Source: Homoserinibacter sp. YIM 151385
Lineage (GTDB): Bacteria > Actinomycetota > Actinomycetes > Actinomycetales > Microbacteriaceae
DNA length: 64,000 bases
Direction: 5' to 3'
Assembly (NCBI RefSeq): GCF_027912415.1
Contig: NZ_CP115175.1
Location: 1,302,001-1,366,000 of the forward strand
Shown here: one piece after another, positions 29,451-40,468 of the stretch
How the letters are laid out: each line of letters begins with the position of its first letter
How positions within the stretch are numbered: the first letter of the stretch is position 1
The notes under the pieces: generated by a model
The model's input: the letters and a program-made list of their open reading frames with translations, nothing else
What the model was told of the DNA's origin: nothing
Database searches by the model: none
Program-made: the position numbers and the translations under genes

Positions 29451-30263
29451 GTGACCCGCCGGAACCGCCCATCGATGCTCCGCGAGCTGCTCGCGGGCGC
29501 CGGCCTGCTCTGGAGGGGGCTCGGGATGTGGTCGCGGCATCCCGGGCTCATGCTGCTGGGCGCGGTGCCGGCGCTCCTCGTGTTCACGCTGCTCGGCGCG
29601 CTCGTCGTGGTGCTCGCCCTCAACATCGAGGGGATCACGGCATGGATGACGCCCTTCGCCGACGACTGGGGTGCGGGGGCGGCGAGCCTCGTCCGCATCC
29701 TCCTCGGCGCGGCGCTCCTGATCGGCGCGATCGCCCTCGGCGTCGCCTCCTTCACCGCGGTGACGCTCGTCGTCGGCGAGCCCGTCTACGCGCGCATCTG
29801 GCGCGCCGCGGAGCAGGATGCGGGCGGCTTCTCGGAGGCGCCGCTCGGCTTCTGGCGCTCGGCCGGGGATGCGGTGCTGCTGATCCTGCGCGGCATCGGG
29901 GTCGGCCTCCTCGTCTTCGCGATCGGCCTGGTGCCGGTCATCGGGCAGCTCGCCTCGCCGGTCGTCGGCGCCCTCCTCAACGGGCACGTGCTCGCCCGGG
30001 AGCTCACGGGCCGCTCCTTCGAGGCGCGCGGGATCACGGCATCCGGGCGTCGAGCCCTGCTGCGCGGGAACCGTGCGCGCGAGCTCGGCTTCGGCGTCAT
30101 GACGCAGCTCTGCTTCCTCGTGCCGGGCGGGGCGGTCGTGATGATGCCGGTCGCGGTCGTCGGCGCGACCGCCCTCGCGCGCTCGATGCTCGCCTCGGTT
30201 GCGCCGCCGCATCCCGCCGTGCCGTCCGTCGCGCCGCCCGCGTCGCCCGCCTCCGCCTCCTGA
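29451..30263 (+). CDS. EI24/CysZ-like membrane protein
   Basis: 270 residues with about five hydrophobic segments and the EI24-family pattern (PVYARIWR, FAIGLVPVIGQLASPVVGALL). CysZ members take up sulphate; in actinobacteria the role is unproven. It lies on the opposite strand between gpsA and plsC, followed by a pair of family B repeats. Confidence 0.82.
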   Translation: MTRRNRPSMLRELLAGAGLLWRGLGMWSRHPGLMLLGAVPALLVFTLLGALVVVLALNIEGITAWMTPFADDWGAGAASLVRILLGAALLIGAIALGVASFTAVTLVVGEPVYARIWRAAEQDAGGFSEAPLGFWRSAGDAVLLILRGIGVGLLVFAIGLVPVIGQLASPVVGALLNGHVLARELTGRSFEARGITASGRRALLRGNRARELGFGVMTQLCFLVPGGAVVMMPVAVVGATALARSMLASVAPPHPAVPSVAPPASPASAS

Positions 30264-30333
30264 TGCACCCCGAGCGGTCGCGGATCCCGTCCCCGCCGCC
30301 TGCACGCCGCGACGCCACTCGCCCCGACACGCC

Positions 30334-30394
30334 CGTGAGGGGTCCCATATGACCGGTTCGGGAGGCCGGAACCCGTCATATGGGACCCCTCGAG
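30334..30394. repeat. Family B palindromic repeat, copy 3
   Basis: 61 bases. Left end CGTGAGGGGTCCCATATGAC; right arm GTCATATGGGACCCCTCGAG, whose last bases have drifted from CTCACG. It lies in the 343-base gap between the convergent EI24 and plsC genes, in which I see no gene. Confidence 0.85.
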
Positions 30395-30485
30395 CCCTCG
30401 AACCGGATGCGGCAGCCGACCCGAGGATTCCGTCCCTCGGGGACGTCCCGAGAAGCGGAGATCGACCCGCACGTGCCGACAGGCC

Positions 30486-30546
30486 CGTGAGGGGTCCCAT
30501 ATGACCGGCTCGGGAGGCCGGAACCCGTCATATGGGACCCCTCACG
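30486..30546. repeat. Family B palindromic repeat, copy 4
   Basis: 61 bases, the best-preserved copy: CGTGAGGGGTCCCATATGAC at the left and GTCATATGGGACCCCTCACG at the right, exact reverse complements over 20 bases. It is 152 bases after copy 3. Confidence 0.88.
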
Positions 30547-30606
30547 AGGTCGAAGGCGCGGCGGGAGCGGGCGGGGCGCGGGGCGCCGGGCGCGGGGCGC
30601 CGCGGC

Positions 30607-31350
30607 CTACGGGCGGCCGAATTCCGTCTGGCCGTGCTGCGCCGGATCCCAGCGCTCCGCCGGCGCCCGCTCGCCGCGGAGCTCCTCGAGGAGCGCCGTG
30701 ATCGCATCCATGACGTGCTCGGTCGCGGCGGCGAGCTCCTCCGAGCTGAGCGGCCGACCCGACCACGCCGCGAGGTCGACGGGCTCGCCGAAGGCGAGGT
30801 CGATGTGCTTGCGCGGGAACGGCCGGAACCTCGAGGAGTAGCGCCCCATGAGCTGCTGCGTGCCCCAGTGGGCGGCCGGGATGATCGGCACGCCGCGCTC
30901 GAGGGCGGCGCGCACCGCGCCCGACTTGCCGCGCATCGGCCAGAGGTCCGGCTCGCGCGTCAGCGTGCCCTCCGGGTAGATGATGACCGACTGCCCCCGC
31001 TCGGCGAGCGCGGCGGCCGCCGCGAGCGGGTTCGCGCCGCGGCCCGAGCGCTCGACGGGGATCTGGCCGAGCCCGCGCAGGAAGCCGCCGACCACGGGGA
31101 TGCGGAACAGCGAGGCCTTCGCGAGGAACCGCGGCACCCGTCCCAGCCGGAACAGCGCGTAGCCGACCACGATCGGATCGATGTTCGTGAAGTGGTTGGG
31201 CGCGAGGATGAACGCCCCCGTCGCCGGCACCCGCTCGCGGTGGTGGTAGGTCACCTTCACCCACGAGGCGATGATCGGGATCGCGAAGACGGCGAGCACC
31301 CGCCAGGGGGCGGTCTTCTCGGAGGTCGTCTTCGTCGTCGCAGGGGCCAC
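30607..31350 (-). CDS. plsC: 1-acyl-sn-glycerol-3-phosphate acyltransferase (PlsC family)
   Basis: 247 residues. Acylates lysophosphatidic acid in phospholipid synthesis. Catalytic NHFTNID (HX4D) near residue 50 and the substrate motif YPEGTLTR. The GTG at 31350 lies 29 bases after the murA stop with GGAG 8-10 bases upstream. It follows leuCD-murA in one direction. Confidence 0.88.
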   Translation of the reverse strand: MAPATTKTTSEKTAPWRVLAVFAIPIIASWVKVTYHHRERVPATGAFILAPNHFTNIDPIVVGYALFRLGRVPRFLAKASLFRIPVVGGFLRGLGQIPVERSGRGANPLAAAAALAERGQSVIIYPEGTLTREPDLWPMRGKSGAVRAALERGVPIIPAAHWGTQQLMGRYSSRFRPFPRKHIDLAFGEPVDLAAWSGRPLSSEELAAATEHVMDAITALLEELRGERAPAERWDPAQHGQTEFGRP

Positions 31351-31379
31351 GGGATGCCGCTCCGGCTCGCGAGCCGCGC

Positions 31380-32759
31380 TCAGCCCGCGAACTCGAAGTC
31401 GGCGCCGAGCCCCTCGAGCTTCTCGACGAAGCCCTCGTAGCCGCGGCTGATGATGCCGAGGTTCGACACGGTGGAGGTCCCCTCGGCGGCGAGCGCCGCG
31501 ATGAGGTAGCTGAAGCCGCCGCGGAGGTCGGGCACGTGCACGTCGGCCCCGTGCAGCTTCGAGGGGCCCGTGATGACGGCGGCCTGCTCCAGCTTGCGGC
31601 GCGGCACGCGTCGGGTCACCGACTCGAGGCCGTCCTGGTGCACGACGATGTCGGCGCCCATCTCGTTGAGCGCGCTCGTGAAGCCGAGGCGGTTCTCGTA
31701 CACGGTCTCGTGCACGACCGACACGCCCTCCGCCTGCGACAGCGCGACGATGAGCGGCTGCTGCCAGTCCGTCATGAAGCCGGGGTGCACATCCGTCTCC
31801 ACCTGCACGGGCGAGAGCGGCCCGCCCGGGTGCCAGAAGCGGATGCCGTCCTCCTGGACGTCGAACTTCCCGCCGACCTTCCGGAACACGTTGAGGAAGG
31901 TCATGAGCTCGGGCTGCCGCGCGCCCTTCACGACGATGTCGCCGCCGGTCGCGAGCGCCGCGGACGCCCACGAGGCGGCCTCGTTGCGGTCGAAGATGGC
32001 GCGGTGCGTGTAGCCCTCGAGGTGCTCGACGCCCTCGATGAAGATGGTGCGGTTCGGCTCGAGCCAGATGATGGCGCCCATCTTCTGGAGCACCGCGATG
32101 AGATCCATGATCTCGGGCTCGATGGCCGCGTTCTTGAGCTCGGTGACGCCCTCCGCGCGGACCGCGGTGAGCAGCACCTGCTCGGTCGCGCCGACGCTCG
32201 GGTACGGGAGCTCGATGTTCGCGCCCTTGAGACCGTCGGGCGCGGTGATGCGGATGCCCTCGTAGCTCTTGTCGACGATCGCGCCGAAGGCCCGGAGCGC
32301 ATCCATGTGGAAGTCGATCGGGCGGTCGCCGATGCGGCAGCCGCCGAGGTCGGGGATGAGGGCCTCGCCGAGGCGGTGCAGCAGCGGCCCGCAGAACAGG
32401 ATGGGGATGCGGCTGGCGCCCGCGAGGGCGTCGATCTCGGTGAAGTGGGCCCGCTCGACGTTCGTCGGGTCGAGCACGAGCACGCCGTCGTCGGGGCTCG
32501 ACACGCGGACGCCGTAGACGCCGAGCATGTCGCGGACGATCTTCACGTCGCTGATCATCGGCACGCCCTGGAGCACGCTCGGCGACTCGCCGAGGAGCGC
32601 CGCGACCATCGCCTTCGTGACGAGGTTCTTCGCGCCGCGGACGTCGACCGTGCCGCGCAGCGGCTTGCCGCCGTGGATCGTGATCTTGTCCGACTTCAGG
32701 CCGACGCGCTCGCCGGCCTTCGATGCGTCCTTCGTGAGCGAGCTCGCTGAATCCGCCAT
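31380..32759 (-). CDS. murA: UDP-N-acetylglucosamine 1-carboxyvinyltransferase
   Basis: 459 residues. First committed step of peptidoglycan synthesis (PEP transfer to UDP-GlcNAc). RGAKN with the catalytic Lys44-Asn45 and the active-site loop LGGCRIGDRP with Cys141. The cysteine, rather than the aspartate of mycobacteria, is the fosfomycin target residue. I chose ATG 32759; an in-frame GTG at 32776 overlaps the leuD stop and would add 6 residues. Confidence 0.95.
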   Translation of the reverse strand: MADSASSLTKDASKAGERVGLKSDKITIHGGKPLRGTVDVRGAKNLVTKAMVAALLGESPSVLQGVPMISDVKIVRDMLGVYGVRVSSPDDGVLVLDPTNVERAHFTEIDALAGASRIPILFCGPLLHRLGEALIPDLGGCRIGDRPIDFHMDALRAFGAIVDKSYEGIRITAPDGLKGANIELPYPSVGATEQVLLTAVRAEGVTELKNAAIEPEIMDLIAVLQKMGAIIWLEPNRTIFIEGVEHLEGYTHRAIFDRNEAASWASAALATGGDIVVKGARQPELMTFLNVFRKVGGKFDVQEDGIRFWHPGGPLSPVQVETDVHPGFMTDWQQPLIVALSQAEGVSVVHETVYENRLGFTSALNEMGADIVVHQDGLESVTRRVPRRKLEQAAVITGPSKLHGADVHVPDLRGGFSYLIAALAAEGTSTVSNLGIISRGYEGFVEKLEGLGADFEFAG

Positions 32760-32772
32760 GTCCACCAATGCC

Positions 32773-33378
32773 TCACTGACCCTGCGGGACCGGGAGGGTC
32801 CTGGGTCGCCATGCCGCCCGACGCGCCTCGAATGCGGTGATCGCATCCTCGTCGCGGAGGGTGAGCGCGATGTCGTCCAGCCCTTCGAGCAGTCGCCACC
32901 GAGTGTAATCGTCGATCTCGAAGGGGAACCGGAGGCCGCCGGCCGACACGGTCCGCGTCTCGAGGTCGACGGTCGCGTGCGTGCCCGGCTGCGCCTCGAC
33001 GGCCGCCCACAGCTGCTCGATCTCGGACTCCGAGACGGTGCCCGCGAGGAGCCCCTGCTTGCCGGAGTTGCCGCGGAAGATGTCGCCGAACCGCGGCGAG
33101 ATGACCGCGCGGAACCCGTAGTCGCGCAGCGCCCAGACGGCGTGCTCGCGGCTCGAGCCGGTGCCGAAGTCGGGGCCTGCGAGGAGGACGCGGGCGCCGG
33201 CGTACGCGGGCTGGTTGAGGATGAACCCGGGGTCCTGCCGCCAGCCGTGGAAGAGGGCGTCGTCGAAGCCCGTCTTCGTGACGCGCTTGAGGAACTGCGC
33301 CGGGATGATCTGGTCGGTGTCGACGTTGCTGCGCCGCATCGGCACGGCGACGCCGGTGATCGCGGTGACCTTCTCCAT
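32773..33378 (-). CDS. leuD: 3-isopropylmalate dehydratase small subunit
   Basis: 201 residues. Pairs with LeuC to isomerise isopropylmalate in leucine synthesis. Typical [18 protein letters not shown] and [15 protein letters not shown]. Its ATG overlaps the leuC stop (TGATG). Confidence 0.96.
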
Positions 33379-34832
33379 CAGGCCATCGCCTCCTCGGTCC
33401 GGGCCGCGAGATCCGCGGGGCTCGACAGGGTGCCGCGGATCGCGGTCGCCGCGGCGACGACCGGCGACACGAGGTGGGTGCGCCCGCCCTTGCCCTGGCG
33501 GCCCTCGAAGTTGCGGTTCGAGGTGGAGGCGCAGCGCTCGCCGGGGGCGAGCTGGTCGGGATTCATGCCGAGGCACATGGAGCAGCCGGCGAAGCGCCAC
33601 TCCGCGCCGAAGGCCTCGACGATCTTGTCGATGCCCTCGGCCTCCGCCTCGATGCGCACCCGGGCCGAGCCCGGCACGACCATGACGCGCACGCCATCCG
33701 CCTTCTGCTGCCCCTCGATGATGGCGGCGAAGGCGCGCAGGTCCTCGATGCGGCTGTTCGTGCAGGAGCCCATGAAGACCGCGTCGACCGGGATCTCCTT
33801 CATCGGGGTGCCCGCGGCGAGGTCCATGTACTCGAGCGCGCGCTCCGCGGCGGCGCGCTCGTTCGGGTCGACGATGGATGCCGGATCCGGCACCGCCTGC
33901 GAGAGCGACACGCCCTGCCCCGGGTTCGTGCCCCAGGTGACGAAGGGCTCCAGCTCGTCGGCGTCGAGGAACACCTCGGCGTCGAAGACGGCGTCGTCGT
34001 CGCTCGCGAGCGTCTCCCAGTAGGCGACCGCCTCATCCCAGTCGGCCCCGGTCGGCGCGTGCGGGCGGCCCTCGAGGTAGTCGTAGGTGGTCTGGTCGGG
34101 GGCGACCATGCCGGCGCGGGCGCCCGCCTCGATCGACATGTTGCAGATCGTCATGCGGCCCTCCATGGAGAGCGCGCGGATCGCGGAGCCGCGGTACTCG
34201 AGCACGTAGCCCTGGCCGCCTCCCGTGCCGATCTTCGCGATGACCGCGAGGATGATGTCCTTCGCGGTGACGCCGGGGCGCAGCTCCCCCTCGACCGTGA
34301 TCGCCATCGTCTTGAAGGGCTTGAGCGGCAGGGTCTGCGTCGCCATCACGTGCTCGACCTCGCTCGTGCCGATGCCGAAGGCCATCGCCCCGAAGGCGCC
34401 GTGCGTGGAGGTGTGCGAGTCGCCGCACACGACGGTGATGCCCGGCATCGTGAGGCCGAGCTGCGGGCCGACGACGTGGACGATGCCCTGCTCGACGTCG
34501 CCGAGCGAGTGGATGCGGACCCCGAACTCCTCGGCGTTGCGGCGGAGGGTCTCGATCTGGGTGCGGCTCGTGAGGTCGGCGATGGGCCGGTCGATCGCGA
34601 GCGTCGGGGTGTTGTGGTCCTCGGTGGCGATCGTGAGGTCGACCCGGCGGAGCGGACGGCCCGCCATCCGGAGGCCGTCGAAGGCCTGCGGGCTCGTCAC
34701 CTCGTGGACGAGGTGGAGGTCGATGTAGATGAGATCCGGCTCGCCGTCCTCGCCCTGCTTGACGAGGTGGTCGGCCCAGACCTTCTCGGCCAGGGTCCTG
34801 GGACGCTCGGCCCCGCTGTCCTTCGTGCTCAT
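33378..34832 (-). CDS. leuC: 3-isopropylmalate dehydratase large subunit
   Basis: 484 residues. Aconitase-family enzyme with a [4Fe-4S] cluster. Cluster cysteines lie in GSCTNSR and GCSMCLG, and [14 protein letters not shown] is present. The ATG at 34832 has GAAGGAA 8 bases upstream. A leucine-rich leader peptide gene and a hairpin lie in its 5' region (34833-34968). Confidence 0.96.
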
Positions 34833-34890
34833 GCTGCTGATTCCTTCGACGTCTCGGTCGGCCGGGTTCCCGTGGCGGGCGACGCTGACT

Positions 34891-34927
34891 CCGCGACGAG
34901 GGGGGCCGTGGTCAGGCCTCGTCGCGG
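34891..34927 (-). promoter_or_regulatory. Putative attenuator hairpin in the leuCD leader
   Basis: Perfect 11-base arms (CCGCGACGAGG at 34927-34917 and CCTCGTCGCGG at 34901-34891, minus strand) with a 15-base loop. The first arm overlaps the last codons of the leader peptide and the loop holds its stop, so a translating ribosome would block it. There is no clear U-run. The pyrimidine-rich leucine codons contain TCCTTC, which could also pair with the leuC ribosome binding site. Confidence 0.55.
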
Positions 34928-34956
34928 CGAGGAAGGAGGAGGTGCCGGTCGAGCAT
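34912..34956 (-). CDS. Leucine-rich leader peptide of leuCD ([14 protein letters not shown])
   Basis: 14 residues with four leucines, three of them consecutive (CTC CTC CTT). The ATG is exactly 6 bases after TAGAAT, so the leader would be translated from a leaderless mRNA. It lies 80 bases upstream of leuC. This fits ribosome-mediated attenuation by leucine supply, known for leu and ilv genes in other actinobacteria. It was too short to be noticed by ordinary gene calling. Confidence 0.7.
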
Positions 34957-34962
34957 CTGCCG

Positions 34963-34968
34963 ATTCTA
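34963..34968 (-). promoter_or_regulatory. -10 element of the leuCD operon
   Basis: TAGAAT on the minus strand, 6 bases before the leader peptide ATG. Confidence 0.6.
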
Positions 34969-35040
34969 ACAGCGCGGATGCGGGCACGGCTGACGCTCGT
35001 CCTCGACGACCGCGGCCGGTCGAGCGGCGCGCCGGGGCGG

Positions 35041-35604
35041 CTACGCGCGGGCGACCGCGATGCGGAGGTCGCCGAGGTGCACGATGTCGCCCGCCTCGAG
35101 CTCGACGGCGAGCCCGGGCGGCACGATGCGCTCGGCCTCGCCGCCGCGGGCGAGCTTGACGCCGTTGGTGGAGCCGAGGTCGACGATGCGGAGGCCGTCG
35201 CCGGCGGGCTCGACGAGCGCGTGGGTCTTCGAGACGGTCTTGCTCTCGTCCTCCAGCGGGACGGCGCGGGCGCCGGGGCGCTCGGCGGGCGCGGTCGGCC
35301 GGCGGCCGAGCACGACGGCCGTGTCGACGTCGATGTGCCGCCCGCCCTGCGGCGAGAGCCGCCACCCGCGGATCACGATCTGCGGGTTGTCGGCGGTGAC
35401 GGGCGCAGCCGGCTCCTCCGCCTTGAGCGGCACGCCGCCGAGCGGGGTCGGCGCCGGGGTGAAGACGGGCGCGGGTCCGGTCGTCTCGGGTGCGCGTCGC
35501 GCGGGCACCCGCCGCGTCTCGGACTCGGTCGGCGCCTCCGGCTCGCGACGGGGCTGGAACCCCGGGGGCGCGCCGATGAGGAACGGGTTCTGATCGTCCG
35601 CCAC
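35041..35604 (-). CDS. FHA domain protein, last gene of the kinase/surface operon
   Basis: 187 residues. A disordered Pro/Glu-rich N-terminus (about residues 1-75) and a C-terminal FHA domain with the phosphothreonine-binding residues in LGRRPTA, SKTHA and STNG. FHA domains read threonine phosphorylation, so the kinase at 46872-48551 is a natural partner. It follows the transglutaminase-like gene by 45 bases. Confidence 0.88.
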
Positions 35605-35649
35605 GAGCGCTCCCTCCGGGTCTCCCGGATGGCTCCGGGTGACGCGAGC

Positions 35650-38196
35650 CTACCGGCTGCCCTCGCCCGGGCGGATGATCGTCGCCTCCTCGGCGTCGCC
35701 GACACCCGCCGGTGCCGCCGCGGCGACGAGCGGATCGGGTCGGGCGGGCGCCGGCGCGGCAGCCGCCCCGGCGGGGGTCCCCCGGCGGCGCAGCTCGCGG
35801 TCCGCCCGCTGCGCGAGACGCGACCCCCAGCTCCGCACGGAGCTGAGCCGGTAGCGGCTCACGATGCGGCGGCCGCCGGGCAGCGCGGACTCGGTCTCGT
35901 CGAGCCGGGTCATGGCGTCCGTCCAGAGCGCCTCGACCTCCTCCGGCGGGATCTCCCGGCCCGAGAACACGGCGGCATCCGCGCGCGTCGCGACGGGGGC
36001 GACGTCCTGCCCGTCCGGCAGCTGCGGGCGCAGGTAGGCGGCGACCATCCCGCGCGTCGAGCGCTCGGGGAGCTCGTAGCCGAGCTCGTTGTAGCGGTCG
36101 GCCAGCTCGTCCCACGCGCCCGCGGCGGCCGCATCCCCGGTCGCGGCCTCGCGTCGACGGCGCATGCGGCGCGCCTTGATCGCGCCGATGACGAGCAGCG
36201 GCACGAAGACGATGGCGAGCGGGATGAGGATGGCGCCGGCGACGATCCAGACCCAGCCGGGGATGCCGAAGAGGTCGTCGTCCTCCTCGTCGCCCTCGTC
36301 GATGTCGACGGCGGAGACGAGGTCGTCCTGCTCGGTGTCGGTGCGCGGCGGCTGGCGGACCTGCGGCTGCGGCTCCGTCTTGGGCTTCGGGACGGTGTCG
36401 GTCGGCGGGTCGATGCGGTCGGGGGTGGGGAAGAACGGCACCCAGCCGACCCCCTCGAAGGCGACCTCGACCCAGGCGCTGACGTCGTCGCCCGTGACCT
36501 GGACGGGGCCGGTCTCGCCCTCCTCGATCTCGGGGGCGAAGCCGAGCACGACCCGCGTCGGGTAGTTGAGGCTCCGCGACATGAGCGCGAACAGCGAGGC
36601 GTACTGCTCCTCGTCGCCGACCATGGCGGAGGTCTGGAGCATCTCGTTCATGCGGTCGGCGGCGTGGCCGGCGCGCGAGGGGGACTGCCCGGCGCCCTGC
36701 CCGCGGCTGTAGTACCCGTTCGCGGTGAGGTACTGCTGCATGGCGCGCAGCTTCGCGATCGGCGTCTCCTCGCCCGCCGTGAGGTCGCCGGCGAGGGCGA
36801 CGACGGGGTCCGGGTTGTTGATGACGGAGGCGGGCGCGAAGGCCGCCGTGGGGACCTCCTGGAGCTCGCTGTCCTCGGGCTCGACGGCGACGCCGCCCCG
36901 CAGGGTGTAGGCATCTCCCGGCTCGAGGCCGGTCGTGAGGACGGTCGTGCCGGTCGCGGCGTTGTAGCGGAGGTCCTCGCGCGAGGGGTCGCCGGCCACG
37001 AAGTCGAGGGCGCTGGTCGTGCCGACCTCCGGCACCCACACGTCCTGATAGCCCTCGAGGATCTCGATGCGCAGCTCGGCCTGCGTCTCCTCGCCGACCG
37101 CGTCGGGGCGCGGGAAGCGCGACCCGATGAGCTGGAAGGAGCCGGAGCCCTCGAGCGCCTGCTCGGAGCCGGCGACGCCCCAGAGCACGCCGTCGTAGGT
37201 GTCCATGGCCGCGATCCGGAGCCGCTCGCCCGGCTGGAGGCCGTCCACCTGCATCACCGGGGTGTCGGGGTCGCGCGTGTACTTGCGGAACCCGGCGAGC
37301 GGGCTCGGGTAGTCGAGCGGGTCGAAGGGCGGCTGGATCTCCTCGCGGAGCACGAAGCGGTTCTCGGCCGGCGGGGTGAGGAGGATGCCGCCGCCGGCCC
37401 CGATGACGGCCGCGGCCGCGACGACCGCGACCGTGCCGAGGATCTTGCGGCGCACGACCGTCGTCGGCGCGGCGAGCGCGATCCGCGCGTGCTCGCGGCG
37501 GTTCCAGCCGAGCCAGACGAGCGCGATGACGCCGAAGCCGATGCCGCGCGCCGCCGCGAAGACGGGCTCGTCGGTGCCGAGCAGCACGCCCGTGATGTAG
37601 AGCGCGATGGGCCACACGAGCACGAGCGCGGCGCGGATGGCGGCGGTCCGCCGGCTGGGGCGCCAGCGCACGACGAGCGTGATCGACATGACGGCGACGA
37701 GCCAGCCCGAGACGTACGGGACGGCGTAGACGTAGGCCGGCAGCTCGACGGGCGGGCGGAGGGTGAGGATGTCGGCCCAGCCGAAGACGGGACCGACCGT
37801 GAGGTCGGAGAGCGAGTCGACCGAGGGCAGCACGAACGCGATGCCCTCCGCGGGCAGCGCGATCGGCGTGCCGAGGAGGTAGTAGGCGAGGATCGCGACG
37901 GCGGCGGTCAGCGGCACCCCGAAGCCGAGCCGGGCGGAGAGGATCGCGACGGCGGCGCCGACGAGGAGGCCGCCCATCCCGACGATGAAGTAGGTCGCCT
38001 CCTCGAAGGCGGTGCCGAGGCCGATCATGCCGAGCACCGCGAGCACGAGCACGACGGCGATGTCGACCCAGGCCCGCGCGGAGCGGAAGACGGCGCGCGC
38101 CTCCTCGGATCCGCCGGAGCGGGTGCCGGGCGCGCCCGGCGCGCCGGGGGTGCCGGCGGCGGTCTGCTCGGCGGCGGGTGCGGTCGCGGTGCTCAC
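35650..38196 (-). CDS. Transglutaminase-like membrane protein with a lost catalytic triad
   Basis: 848 residues. Several N-terminal helices (about residues 45-260), an extracytoplasmic region, a transglutaminase-like core, an acidic linker, one helix (about 650-675) and a cytoplasmic domain: the same plan as 6507-8825. Aligned through the shared core (LxRxxxxPxRVxxGF and AWxEVxFxGxGWxxFxPTP), the Cys-His-Asp triad is replaced by Glu529, Ser573 and Glu581. It is probably a pseudoenzyme or binding/scaffold protein. The GTG overlaps the DUF58 stop and follows GGAGGAT by 4 bases. Confidence 0.88.
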   Translation of the reverse strand: MSTATAPAAEQTAAGTPGAPGAPGTRSGGSEEARAVFRSARAWVDIAVVLVLAVLGMIGLGTAFEEATYFIVGMGGLLVGAAVAILSARLGFGVPLTAAVAILAYYLLGTPIALPAEGIAFVLPSVDSLSDLTVGPVFGWADILTLRPPVELPAYVYAVPYVSGWLVAVMSITLVVRWRPSRRTAAIRAALVLVWPIALYITGVLLGTDEPVFAAARGIGFGVIALVWLGWNRREHARIALAAPTTVVRRKILGTVAVVAAAAVIGAGGGILLTPPAENRFVLREEIQPPFDPLDYPSPLAGFRKYTRDPDTPVMQVDGLQPGERLRIAAMDTYDGVLWGVAGSEQALEGSGSFQLIGSRFPRPDAVGEETQAELRIEILEGYQDVWVPEVGTTSALDFVAGDPSREDLRYNAATGTTVLTTGLEPGDAYTLRGGVAVEPEDSELQEVPTAAFAPASVINNPDPVVALAGDLTAGEETPIAKLRAMQQYLTANGYYSRGQGAGQSPSRAGHAADRMNEMLQTSAMVGDEEQYASLFALMSRSLNYPTRVVLGFAPEIEEGETGPVQVTGDDVSAWVEVAFEGVGWVPFFPTPDRIDPPTDTVPKPKTEPQPQVRQPPRTDTEQDDLVSAVDIDEGDEEDDDLFGIPGWVWIVAGAILIPLAIVFVPLLVIGAIKARRMRRRREAATGDAAAAGAWDELADRYNELGYELPERSTRGMVAAYLRPQLPDGQDVAPVATRADAAVFSGREIPPEEVEALWTDAMTRLDETESALPGGRRIVSRYRLSSVRSWGSRLAQRADRELRRRGTPAGAAAAPAPARPDPLVAAAAPAGVGDAEEATIIRPGEGSR

Positions 38197-39503
38197 AGGA
38201 TCCTCCGGATGAGGCGGGGCAGGTCGGAGAGCTGCCCGAGCGTGACGATGCGGAGCGCCTTCACGTAGTTGAGGCGGGCCGGCTGCCCGAGCTCCGCCCG
38301 GAATCCGACGGTCTGGGTGTCGGGGCCGAAGAACTGCTCGACGCCGCGCAGGTCGCGGCTCGTGATGCCGGATCCGCCGACGACCATCGCGAGGCTCGGC
38401 CGCGGGAGGCGGCGGGTGGCGTCGCGCGCGTACTCGCGCAGGCTCCCGTGCCGGCTCGAGCCGAGCTCGAGGCGGCAGGTGTCGTCGAGGAGCGTCGTCG
38501 GGGTGTGGACGCGGAGCGACAGGTCCTCCGCGATGACGTCGGCGGGCGTCGAGTCGCCGATGATGCGGATGCCGAGCGAGGCGAGCACGGAGACGGCGAG
38601 CTCGAACTCGGCCTCGTCGGCGTAGTGGCGGCGGTCGGTCGAGAAGAGCAGCACGACCTGCGAGCGGCGGGTCTCCTCGAACTGCTTCACCATGAGCTGG
38701 CCCGTGCGGGCGGAGGTCCGCCAGTGCACGGAGCGGAGCGCGTCGCCGGGCTCGTAGGAGCGCAGCGCGTGGAAGGAGATGTCGTCGTTCGTGACGGTCT
38801 TCGAGACCGCGCCCTCGATGTCCCGCACGAGCCCGGCCGCGCTCGGCTCGAGGCGCGCGATCTGCGGGTGCACGAAGAGCTCGACGGGGTCCGACCAGCG
38901 CACGGTGCGCCGGAAGAGCCCGAGCTGGTCGCCGCGCACGGAGACCGCGGGGCCCGCGACGATGACGGCGCGGCGCTGGGTCGGGACGGCGAAGAGCTCC
39001 TCGTGCTCCGCCTCCGGCTCGAGCGGCGGCACGATGAACTCGGCGAGCCCCTGCCCGACGGGCAGCTCGAAGCGGCTCGGGGCCGTGCGGCGCGGCGCGG
39101 TGCTCTGCACGGTGAAGCGGCCGAGCGCGCGCTCCCCCGCCGTGACGCGGCGCGGCGTGAGCTCGATGCCGACGCGGAAGGAGGCCCGGCCGATGATGAA
39201 GATCGCCGCGACGAGGAGTCCACCGACGAGCGTCGCGCCGAGGAAGACGAGCTCCTGCCAGCCGAGCACGAGCCCCGCGACGAGGGAGGCGGTGCCCGCG
39301 ACGAGCACGAGCCAGCCGATGCCGCTGACGACCGCGAGCACGGGCTGCACGATGCGCCACCCGGCGAGCACGAGGTAGGCGAGCACGCGGAGCCCCCGCC
39401 AGATCGTCTTCCCGAGCGGGGCGAGGAGCTCGCGCAGGCTCACGAGGACGCGCAGGATGCCGGGTCGCGCCCGGTTCCAGAGCGCCGTGAGCCGCGCGAT
39501 CAT
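38193..39503 (-). CDS. DUF58 domain-containing protein
   Basis: 436 residues. An amphipathic N-terminus, two membrane helices (about residues 55-105), a beta-rich region and the DUF58 motif LRSYEPGDALRSVHWRTSARTG near residue 250. It overlaps MoxR at its start and the transglutaminase-like gene at its end. Paralogue of 8812-10149, with only partial sequence similarity. Confidence 0.9.
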   Translation of the reverse strand: MIARLTALWNRARPGILRVLVSLRELLAPLGKTIWRGLRVLAYLVLAGWRIVQPVLAVVSGIGWLVLVAGTASLVAGLVLGWQELVFLGATLVGGLLVAAIFIIGRASFRVGIELTPRRVTAGERALGRFTVQSTAPRRTAPSRFELPVGQGLAEFIVPPLEPEAEHEELFAVPTQRRAVIVAGPAVSVRGDQLGLFRRTVRWSDPVELFVHPQIARLEPSAAGLVRDIEGAVSKTVTNDDISFHALRSYEPGDALRSVHWRTSARTGQLMVKQFEETRRSQVVLLFSTDRRHYADEAEFELAVSVLASLGIRIIGDSTPADVIAEDLSLRVHTPTTLLDDTCRLELGSSRHGSLREYARDATRRLPRPSLAMVVGGSGITSRDLRGVEQFFGPDTQTVGFRAELGQPARLNYVKALRIVTLGQLSDLPRLIRRIL

Positions 39504-40468
39504 GCGGCGCGGTAGCTGGGCGGCTCGATCCCGATGACGATCGAGGTGACGATGTCCTCCGCCTTCGCGCCCTGGAACTCGGCCTCGGGGTCGACGATGA
39601 GGCGGTGCGCGAGCACCGGGACGGCGAGCTCGCGGATGTCGTCGGGCGTCACGTAGGTGCGGCCCTTCGAGAGCGCCATGGTCTTCGCGGCGCGGGCGAG
39701 CGCGAGGGAGCCGCGCATGGACGCCCCGAGCACGATGTCGGCGTGCGCGCGGGTGCCCGAGACGATCGTGTTGAGGTACTCCATGACGGACTGGTCGACG
39801 AAGGCGTCGGCGGCGAGCTCGGCCATGCTCGCGACCGAGTCGGCGGCGATGATGGGCGAGATCCGCGAGGCGCGGGCGCGGTTCGAGGCGTCCATGAGGA
39901 GCGTCACGCTCGTCGCGTCGTCGGGGTAGCCGAGCGAGGTCTTGATGAGGAAGCGGTCGAGCTGCGCCTCGGGAAGCTTGTAGGTGCCCGCCTGCTCGAC
40001 CGGGTTCTGCGTCGCGATGACGACGAAGGGGCTGCCGACCTTGTGGCCGACGCCGTCGACCGTGACGACGCCCTCCTCCATGACCTCGAGGAGCGCCGAC
40101 TGCGTCTTCGGGCTCGCCCGGTTGATCTCGTCCGCGAGGACGACGTTCGCGAAGATCGGCCCCGGGTGGAACTCGAACACGCCCTTCGACTGGTCGAAGA
40201 TCGTGACGCCCGTGACGTCCGAGGGCAGCAGGTCGGGCGTGAACTGGATGCGCGAGTTGGTGCCGTCGAGCGTGTTCGCGATCGACTTCGCGAGGACCGT
40301 CTTGCCGGTGCCCGGGTAGTCCTCGAGCAGCACGTGGCCGTTCGAGAGCATCGCGACGAGCACGAGTCGGATCTGGTCCTTCTTGCCGAGGATCGCCTTG
40401 TCGACGTTCTCGACGAGCTTCTCGAAGGCGTCGGCGAACCAGGTCGCCTGCTCCTGCGTGACGGGCAC
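39500..40468 (-). CDS. MoxR-family AAA+ ATPase
   Basis: 322 residues. Walker A DYPGTGKT, Walker B VVLADEINRASPKTQSALLE, ATQNPVEQAGTYKLPEAQ and a C-terminal lid with VPVLAHRL. Probably remodels or loads the DUF58/transglutaminase-like partners. The GTG at 40468 follows a weak AAAGAGAG. It lies 52 bases downstream of the giant surface protein gene. Confidence 0.93.
   Translation of the reverse strand: MPVTQEQATWFADAFEKLVENVDKAILGKKDQIRLVLVAMLSNGHVLLEDYPGTGKTVLAKSIANTLDGTNSRIQFTPDLLPSDVTGVTIFDQSKGVFEFHPGPIFANVVLADEINRASPKTQSALLEVMEEGVVTVDGVGHKVGSPFVVIATQNPVEQAGTYKLPEAQLDRFLIKTSLGYPDDATSVTLLMDASNRARASRISPIIAADSVASMAELAADAFVDQSVMEYLNTIVSGTRAHADIVLGASMRGSLALARAAKTMALSKGRTYVTPDDIRELAVPVLAHRLIVDPEAEFQGAKAEDIVTSIVIGIEPPSYRAA

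Follow-up and report, generated by a model that had tools for sequence, protein, structure and literature searches.

The window, the whole 64,000-nucleotide stretch analyzed here, belongs to a 2.88 Mb genome in one contig that the LeuC tree places among the Microbacteriaceae. Its minus strand carries leuC and leuD, assigned to the large and small subunits of 3-isopropylmalate dehydratase, and the region between leuC and a gene encoding an FHA-domain protein holds a short leader with a hairpin. The initial annotation had described a −10 box, six bases, a leader open reading frame (ORF) with three consecutive Leu codons, and a perfect 11-base hairpin overlapping the ORF end, all about 80 bases before leuC. 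A letter-by-letter check bore this out: the hairpin arms match at 11 of 11 pairs (an exact 11-bp inverted repeat), and the leuC ATG at 34832 lies 79 nt past the leader stop. The features are listed below, with the basis for each in parentheses.

34963..34971, minus strand: extended −10 promoter box TGTTAGAAT (letter-by-letter check)
34962-34957, minus strand: six-base spacer CGGCAG (letter-by-letter check)
34912..34956, minus strand: leader ORF, predicted leaderless (letter-by-letter check)
34932..34937, minus strand: TCCTTC within the run of Leu codons, 5' side of the predicted base stem and complementary to the leuC Shine-Dalgarno (centroid fold)
34917..34927, minus strand: 5' arm of stem P1, CCGCGACGAGG, overlapping leader codons 10-14 (letters; conservation)
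34904..34908, minus strand: CGGCC in the P1 loop, candidate pseudoknot 5' strand (helix supported over the leader set)
34891..34901, minus strand: 3' arm of stem P1, CCTCGTCGCGG (letters; conservation)
34859..34863, minus strand: GGCCG, candidate pseudoknot 3' strand (its placement in the window is our own reading)
34842..34847, minus strand: leuC Shine-Dalgarno GAAGGA, nine bases 5' of the leuC ATG; 3' side of the predicted base stem (letters; fold)
33378..34832, minus strand: leuC, 3-isopropylmalate dehydratase large subunit (TIGR00170 and NF004016 above cut-off)
32773..33378, minus strand: leuD, small subunit, its start overlapping the leuC stop (named from sequence and place)

The leader codons read ATG CTC GAC CGG CAC CTC CTC CTT CCT CGC CGC GAC GAG GCC TGA, giving one early Leu codon (CTC) and a later run of CTC CTC CTT. 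The last codons form the 5' arm of P1, and the UGA stop codon sits in the P1 loop. Both the minimum free energy and the centroid fold of the window pair the UCCUUC of the Leu run with the GAAGGA before leuC; the predicted fold pairs the P1 loop locally and contains no pseudoknot, a structure that the program cannot predict. Because the fold energy of the leader is ordinary (z 0.15), support for the structure comes from conservation and not from stability. The same genome encodes a second LeuC-like protein (G000:C1:1660239-1661648; 56% identical), before which no element match was found.

Conservation of the leuC leader

From relatives, a stem pattern specifying most of P1 pairs 1-8 picked out 34 leuC leaders, and a covariance model, R1, was built from them. 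The comparison of related leuC leaders proposed in the initial annotation thereby had a divided outcome: of 50 leuC loci in Microbacteriaceae, 35 scored at least 67.9 bits with R1 (34 of these are training rows of the model), but the element was absent at the other 15. The scan covered 100 of 110 loci (L104-L113 were left out), and none of the 50 leuC loci not labelled Microbacteriaceae, which include four metagenome-assembled genomes without a family name (L076, L096, L099, L105), was matched (best score, 16.8 bits). Two of the Microbacteriaceae leuC genes without the element (L021 and L055) have a TANNNT box 6-7 nt before the leuC start, and the leuC mRNA itself may be leaderless there.

The expectation that a Leu-rich ORF and the hairpin would be conserved held among the relatives that carry the element. 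In all 34 pattern-picked leaders, a start codon stands 5-7 nt after TANNNT and opens a short ORF into the stem, and each ORF has at least two Leu codons, which the pattern did not ask for. The distance from start to P1 is 26, 29, or 32 nt, a single frame in 34 of 34, while the P1 span and the P1-to-gene distance each occupy all three frame classes. The aligned 34 leaders fold into a single 10-pair stem. The two pairs that the pattern left free (columns 56/80 and 57/79) form in every leader, columns 56/80 with 10 double changes from A-U to G-C; among the pairs within the pattern, one varies (29 A-U, 3 G-U, 1 G-C, and 1 broken).

A larger set came from a finder that required an exact stem of eight bases and two near-by in-frame Leu codons, with identical leaders counted once. 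It returned 82 leaders; removal of L067 and L068 as false finds left 80 leuA/leuC leaders for the −10 count, and removal of L005, for which no gene start had been chosen, left 79 (38 leuC, 41 leuA) for the pairing tests. The carriers L010, L035, L040, L044, and L047 fall outside the finder rule. Since the finder required the stem and in-frame Leu, an intact P1 in 79/79 and a single frame in 79/79 are partly built in. Over the 79 leaders, both arms of P1 vary at pairs 3, 5, 6, 8, and 9, most strikingly in leuA paralogues, where CCACGGCGGGG pairs with CCCCGCCGTGG.

A TANNNT box lies 6 or 7 nt upstream of the leader start in 75 of the 80 leaders, a count to be read knowing that, where several starts were possible, the finder favored one having a −10 box. 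The background among 3027 ATG/GTG codons on both window strands is 0.26% (6 nt) and 0.10% (7 nt), and the −10 layout exceeds chance. In the window, the spacing from −10 box to start is 6 nt, which fits a leaderless mRNA with a start site predicted from the layout; if transcription begins at 34956, there is no room for a Shine-Dalgarno, so the leader is predicted to be leaderless. The comparison thus supports the leaderless layout described in the initial annotation. A standard sigma-70 scan of 34700-35200 found no promoter.

Codon choice in the leaders is distinctive. CUU accounts for 75 of the 144 Leu codons of leuC leaders. Elsewhere it is rare, with 33 among 962 Leu codons in the leuC genes of some of these loci and 16 among 1234 in coding-like frames within the window. 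CUU is also the final Leu codon of 32/38 leuC and 33/41 leuA leaders; whatever its identity, the final Leu codon ends 5 nt before P1 in 32/38 and 40/41, respectively.

For the pseudoknot, the longest Watson-Crick stretch between the P1 loop and the 40 nt downstream was compared for cognate and re-paired partners. This stretch was 4.89 versus 4.52 in leuC leaders (32 of 5000 shuffles as high) and 5.29 versus 4.36 for all leuA leaders together (0 of 5000), with the promoter and gene-start control regions flat. A duplex-energy version gave 0/2000 over all 79 leaders and was not significant for leuC alone (160/2000) or Microbacteriaceae leuA alone (657/2000). In the window, a second helix of 5 bp (CGGCC:GGCCG) is possible; its placement is uncertain, and the candidate GGCCG strand lies more distant downstream than in most relatives.

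Pairing of the Leu run with the Shine-Dalgarno is the weakest step of our explanation. The proposal that TCCTTC acts as an anti-ribosome-binding site agrees with the window folds, but its cross-species support is moderate and the controls lean likewise. Over all 79 leaders, no re-pairing out of 5000 reached the observed Watson-Crick complementarity (controls, 1111 and 167); for leuC alone, 11 did, with the controls at 102 and 209 of 5000 showing the same lean. With G-U allowed, at least six contiguous pairs with the Shine-Dalgarno were found in 36/38 leuC leaders, against 14 and 25 for the control regions, and in 27/41 leuA leaders, against 14 and 33, so that one control outdoes the leuA test. 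Predicted pairs in leuC number 8.1 versus 4.6 with shuffled runs, and only 13 of the 38 leaders beat all ten shuffles of their own Leu run. In a duplex-energy permutation of Leu run against Shine-Dalgarno, the controls deviated as much as the test; contiguous-pair and base-pair-probability versions were better without being clean. On this evidence, the base stem is probable.

Copies before leuA and other genes

An RNA named the LEU element has been described upstream of actinobacterial leuA genes (Seliverstov et al. 2005; PMC1262725), in a genome set that includes Leifsonia xyli. Its structure, according to the accessible text, comprises a Leu leader, a pseudoknot, and a Leu run that pairs with the Shine-Dalgarno of the gene. 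The window genome has its own leuA copy: R1 matches C1:443338-443449 more strongly than the leuC copy, leuA (TIGR00970 above cut-off) begins 10 nt after the match, and the leader, (M)LFGRLLLSCRDEA, shares its stem with the leuC copy. This copy and the conservation described above identify the window element as a second copy of the LEU element.

At least one R1 match is present in 116 of 120 Microbacteriaceae genomes. Of the 202 matches collected, 123 lie upstream of leuA or one of its paralogues and 74 upstream of leuC (at least 14 of them R1 training rows); five precede neither. These five comprise one leuC at a contig end, three before transporters of the major facilitator superfamily (MFS), and one partial 30-bit match in G086 that we judged to be chance. 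Although the model derives from leuC leaders alone, the element precedes leuA in 114/114 Microbacteriaceae genomes in which leuA was detected at E ≤ 1e-100. Before leuC, it is present in 74 of 115 genomes with a hit at E ≤ 1e-150 and absent from the other 41, all of which were re-searched. Phylum-wide under strict filters, R1 matched 19 of 198 genomes, the genome of the window included.

The patchy distribution before leuC, together with its absence at 15 of 50 loci, would suit a leuC copy that is a decaying relic, transcribed without regulatory effect. An apparent relic is seen in L013, and one P1 pair is mismatched in L010 and also, on visual inspection, in L044. The other carriers inspected keep P1 intact with double changes and keep the ORF open, and we consider decay highly improbable as an account of the leuC copy. 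In L013 (~1392-1460), the apparent relic includes CTTAGCCGCCGCGACGAG, read in frame as the C terminus LSRRDES of an upstream regulator-like gene, which we read as GntR/FCD class.

Several copies occur beyond the two main sites. A second leuA is found in 11 Microbacteriaceae genomes, and in nine of them the paralogue has its own LEU element; in three such elements (L192, L198, L199), P1 has changed yet remains complementary. Two weak matches in one genus, L202 (G022:C8:146282-146390; 31.0 bits; leader MSRGLRLRSRGRA) and L208:700-809 (G117:C78; 35.2 bits; leader MSRVLLLRSRGRA), have a transporter gene downstream (MFS_1 in L208, by eye in L202), making leucine-linked transporter control possible there. 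L207 (G127:C1:761597-761707; 46.5 bits) has a leader ending in RQLLLRRDGS before an MFS transporter whose best NCBIfam match, MdtG, falls under its cut-off. LEU-like elements also stand ~240-290 nt before leuB in L201 (G219:C2:337287-337396) and L173 (G025:C1:863382-863493), with leuB identified by Iso_dh in L201 and from its sequence in L173; the two genomes represent two other families of the order and have kept NdgR. Finally, the second R1 matches in seven Streptomyces-like loci (L166-L172) are leuS leaders, which share the front half and then continue into a GC-rich hairpin and T run where the sequence reaches. As judged from these sequences, one leader is joined to two kinds of downstream device.

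Proposed control of leuCD

At the level of sequence, the locus has a leader ORF, the −10 layout, P1, pseudoknot complementarity across the set, and homology with the copy that precedes leuA elsewhere in the genome. We think it fairly likely that this second copy of the LEU element works as a translational attenuator of leuCD through the leuC Shine-Dalgarno. Transcription would begin at the leader start codon, and ribosomes would translate the leader without a Shine-Dalgarno. When leucine is ample, the ribosome would pass the Leu codons and depart, P1 and the pseudoknot would form, and these would bring UCCUUC to the GAAGGA of leuC, leaving leuC poorly translated. When charged leucyl-tRNA is scarce, the ribosome would stall on the Leu run, mostly ending in CUU and 5 nt before P1; it would cover the run and block closure of P1, freeing the Shine-Dalgarno for translation of leuCD. 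The rare CUU codon would suit both a sensitive sensor and pairing with the Shine-Dalgarno. The mechanism as a whole is probable, and it predicts that leuCD responds to leucine.

The leucine-sensing attenuation suggested in the initial annotation is supported by comparison in its leader layout, ORF, and hairpin, but not as attenuation of the trp type: a scan of 34700-35200 found no terminator-like site (no hairpin with a U-tract), and trp-type attenuation is therefore not indicated. Any termination would then need Rho, and attenuation might proceed without an intrinsic terminator, with the leader ribosomes deciding whether Rho halts transcription before leuC. Rho has been proposed for Cys leaders (PMC1262725, accessible text). 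Such a scheme leaves both the pseudoknot and the complementarity of Leu run and Shine-Dalgarno unexplained, and we regard it as unlikely.

The folded leader could instead be the binding site of a regulatory protein, with the leader peptide incidental. P1 and the pseudoknot are compact and conserved, and the authors of the 2005 description proposed the ML1624 family for leuA on a phylogenetic argument (PMC1262725, accessible text). Under that proposal, it is hard to see why the ORF stays in frame and why rare Leu codons keep a near-fixed distance from P1, and we judge it quite improbable. One report counts against translational attenuation by the leader. Mutations in the Streptomyces coelicolor leuA leader had some effect that was inconsistent with classical attenuation, and the conclusion given in the accessible text of PMC1262725 is that leucine-codon mutations do not influence regulation.

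In other actinobacteria, leuCD is regulated by NdgR/LtbR, an IclR protein encoded beside it (PMC4340878, accessible text). As a query, we used the protein divergent from leuC in L063, which has IclR domains and is called NdgR from its place. Whole-genome searches found an orthologue in 23/23 genomes from the same order but outside this family (58-100% identity, at least 286 bits) and in none of 36 Microbacteriaceae genomes, where the best matches reached 36% identity and 70.3 bits. In all 14 other-family genomes in which the place of leuC is known, the orthologue lies divergent beside it. Among the 36 Microbacteriaceae, NdgR is missing whether or not the genome has the leuC element. When mapped on the LeuC tree, the element requires 7 changes versus a shuffled mean of 17.5, and a Rhodoluna-like branch at the base of the Microbacteriaceae is without it. 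The pattern would be compatible with one gain and several losses.

The Microbacteriaceae RNA thus occupies the place where other actinobacteria keep NdgR/LtbR, a striking correlation that suggests an exchange of regulators. Tentatively, at a little under even confidence, we propose that NdgR/LtbR was lost in the ancestor of most Microbacteriaceae and that its role at leuCD passed to a duplicated translational attenuator that is leaderless and has no terminator. This cassette would have been recopied before leuA paralogues and, sporadically, leuB and MFS transporters, giving a leucine regulon of ribosome-sensing RNA with no transcription factor.

Relation to known leucine leaders

Rfam covariance models (T-box, riboswitches, and amino-acid leaders) gave eight matches at E ≤ 1 in window positions 30000-40000, none of them over the element and none reaching the gathering score of its family; eight element loci gave no match at E ≤ 0.1. 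The closest relative is the LEU element of PMC1262725, with which the window copy has in common a leader ORF with a Leu run, a stem and pseudoknot, and a Leu run able to pair with the Shine-Dalgarno. The Leu-run ORF, the helices of the pseudoknot (P1 and the candidate second helix), the predicted base stem, and homology with leuA copies are all present, and membership in this RNA family is, from sequence, nearly certain. The window copy differs in standing before leuCD and not before leuA, as the other copy in the genome does; the accessible text of PMC1262725 names no leuC element. We read the location before leuA as a description of the first examples and not as part of the LEU structure.

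Leaderlessness is not new, since the leuA leader of Streptomyces lividans, LeuL1 (MRFGLLLLSCRGEGL), has already been reported as leaderless and without a typical Rho-independent terminator (PMC8079986, accessible text). LeuL1 is Leu-rich like the window leader and much like the leuA leaders of our set; it differs in lying at leuA and in having a start from 5'-end sequencing, whereas the window start derives from the −10 layout alone. The same source describes the Streptomyces leuS leader (MRAVRLLLSEPR), which has a similar promoter and front half and is matched by R1, but whose hairpin and U run imply attenuation of the terminator type.

The published literature, as far as searched, places no LEU element before leuC. 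Within the same reach, what is new is the position before leuCD in one family without detected NdgR/LtbR, along with the copies dispersed upstream of leuA paralogues, leuB, and MFS transporters. Prediction of the LEU element dates back to 2005, and its mechanism is unsettled in the literature searched. One genome with two copies at different genes, some 200 natural variants, and a family in which no NdgR was found make a clean setting, one that suits testing whether a leaderless leader peptide acts through the ribosome-binding site to control translation. NdgR/LtbR controls the same operon in other actinobacteria but does so as a DNA-binding protein (PMC4340878, accessible text); if the proposed exchange is true, an RNA device stands where a transcription factor once was.
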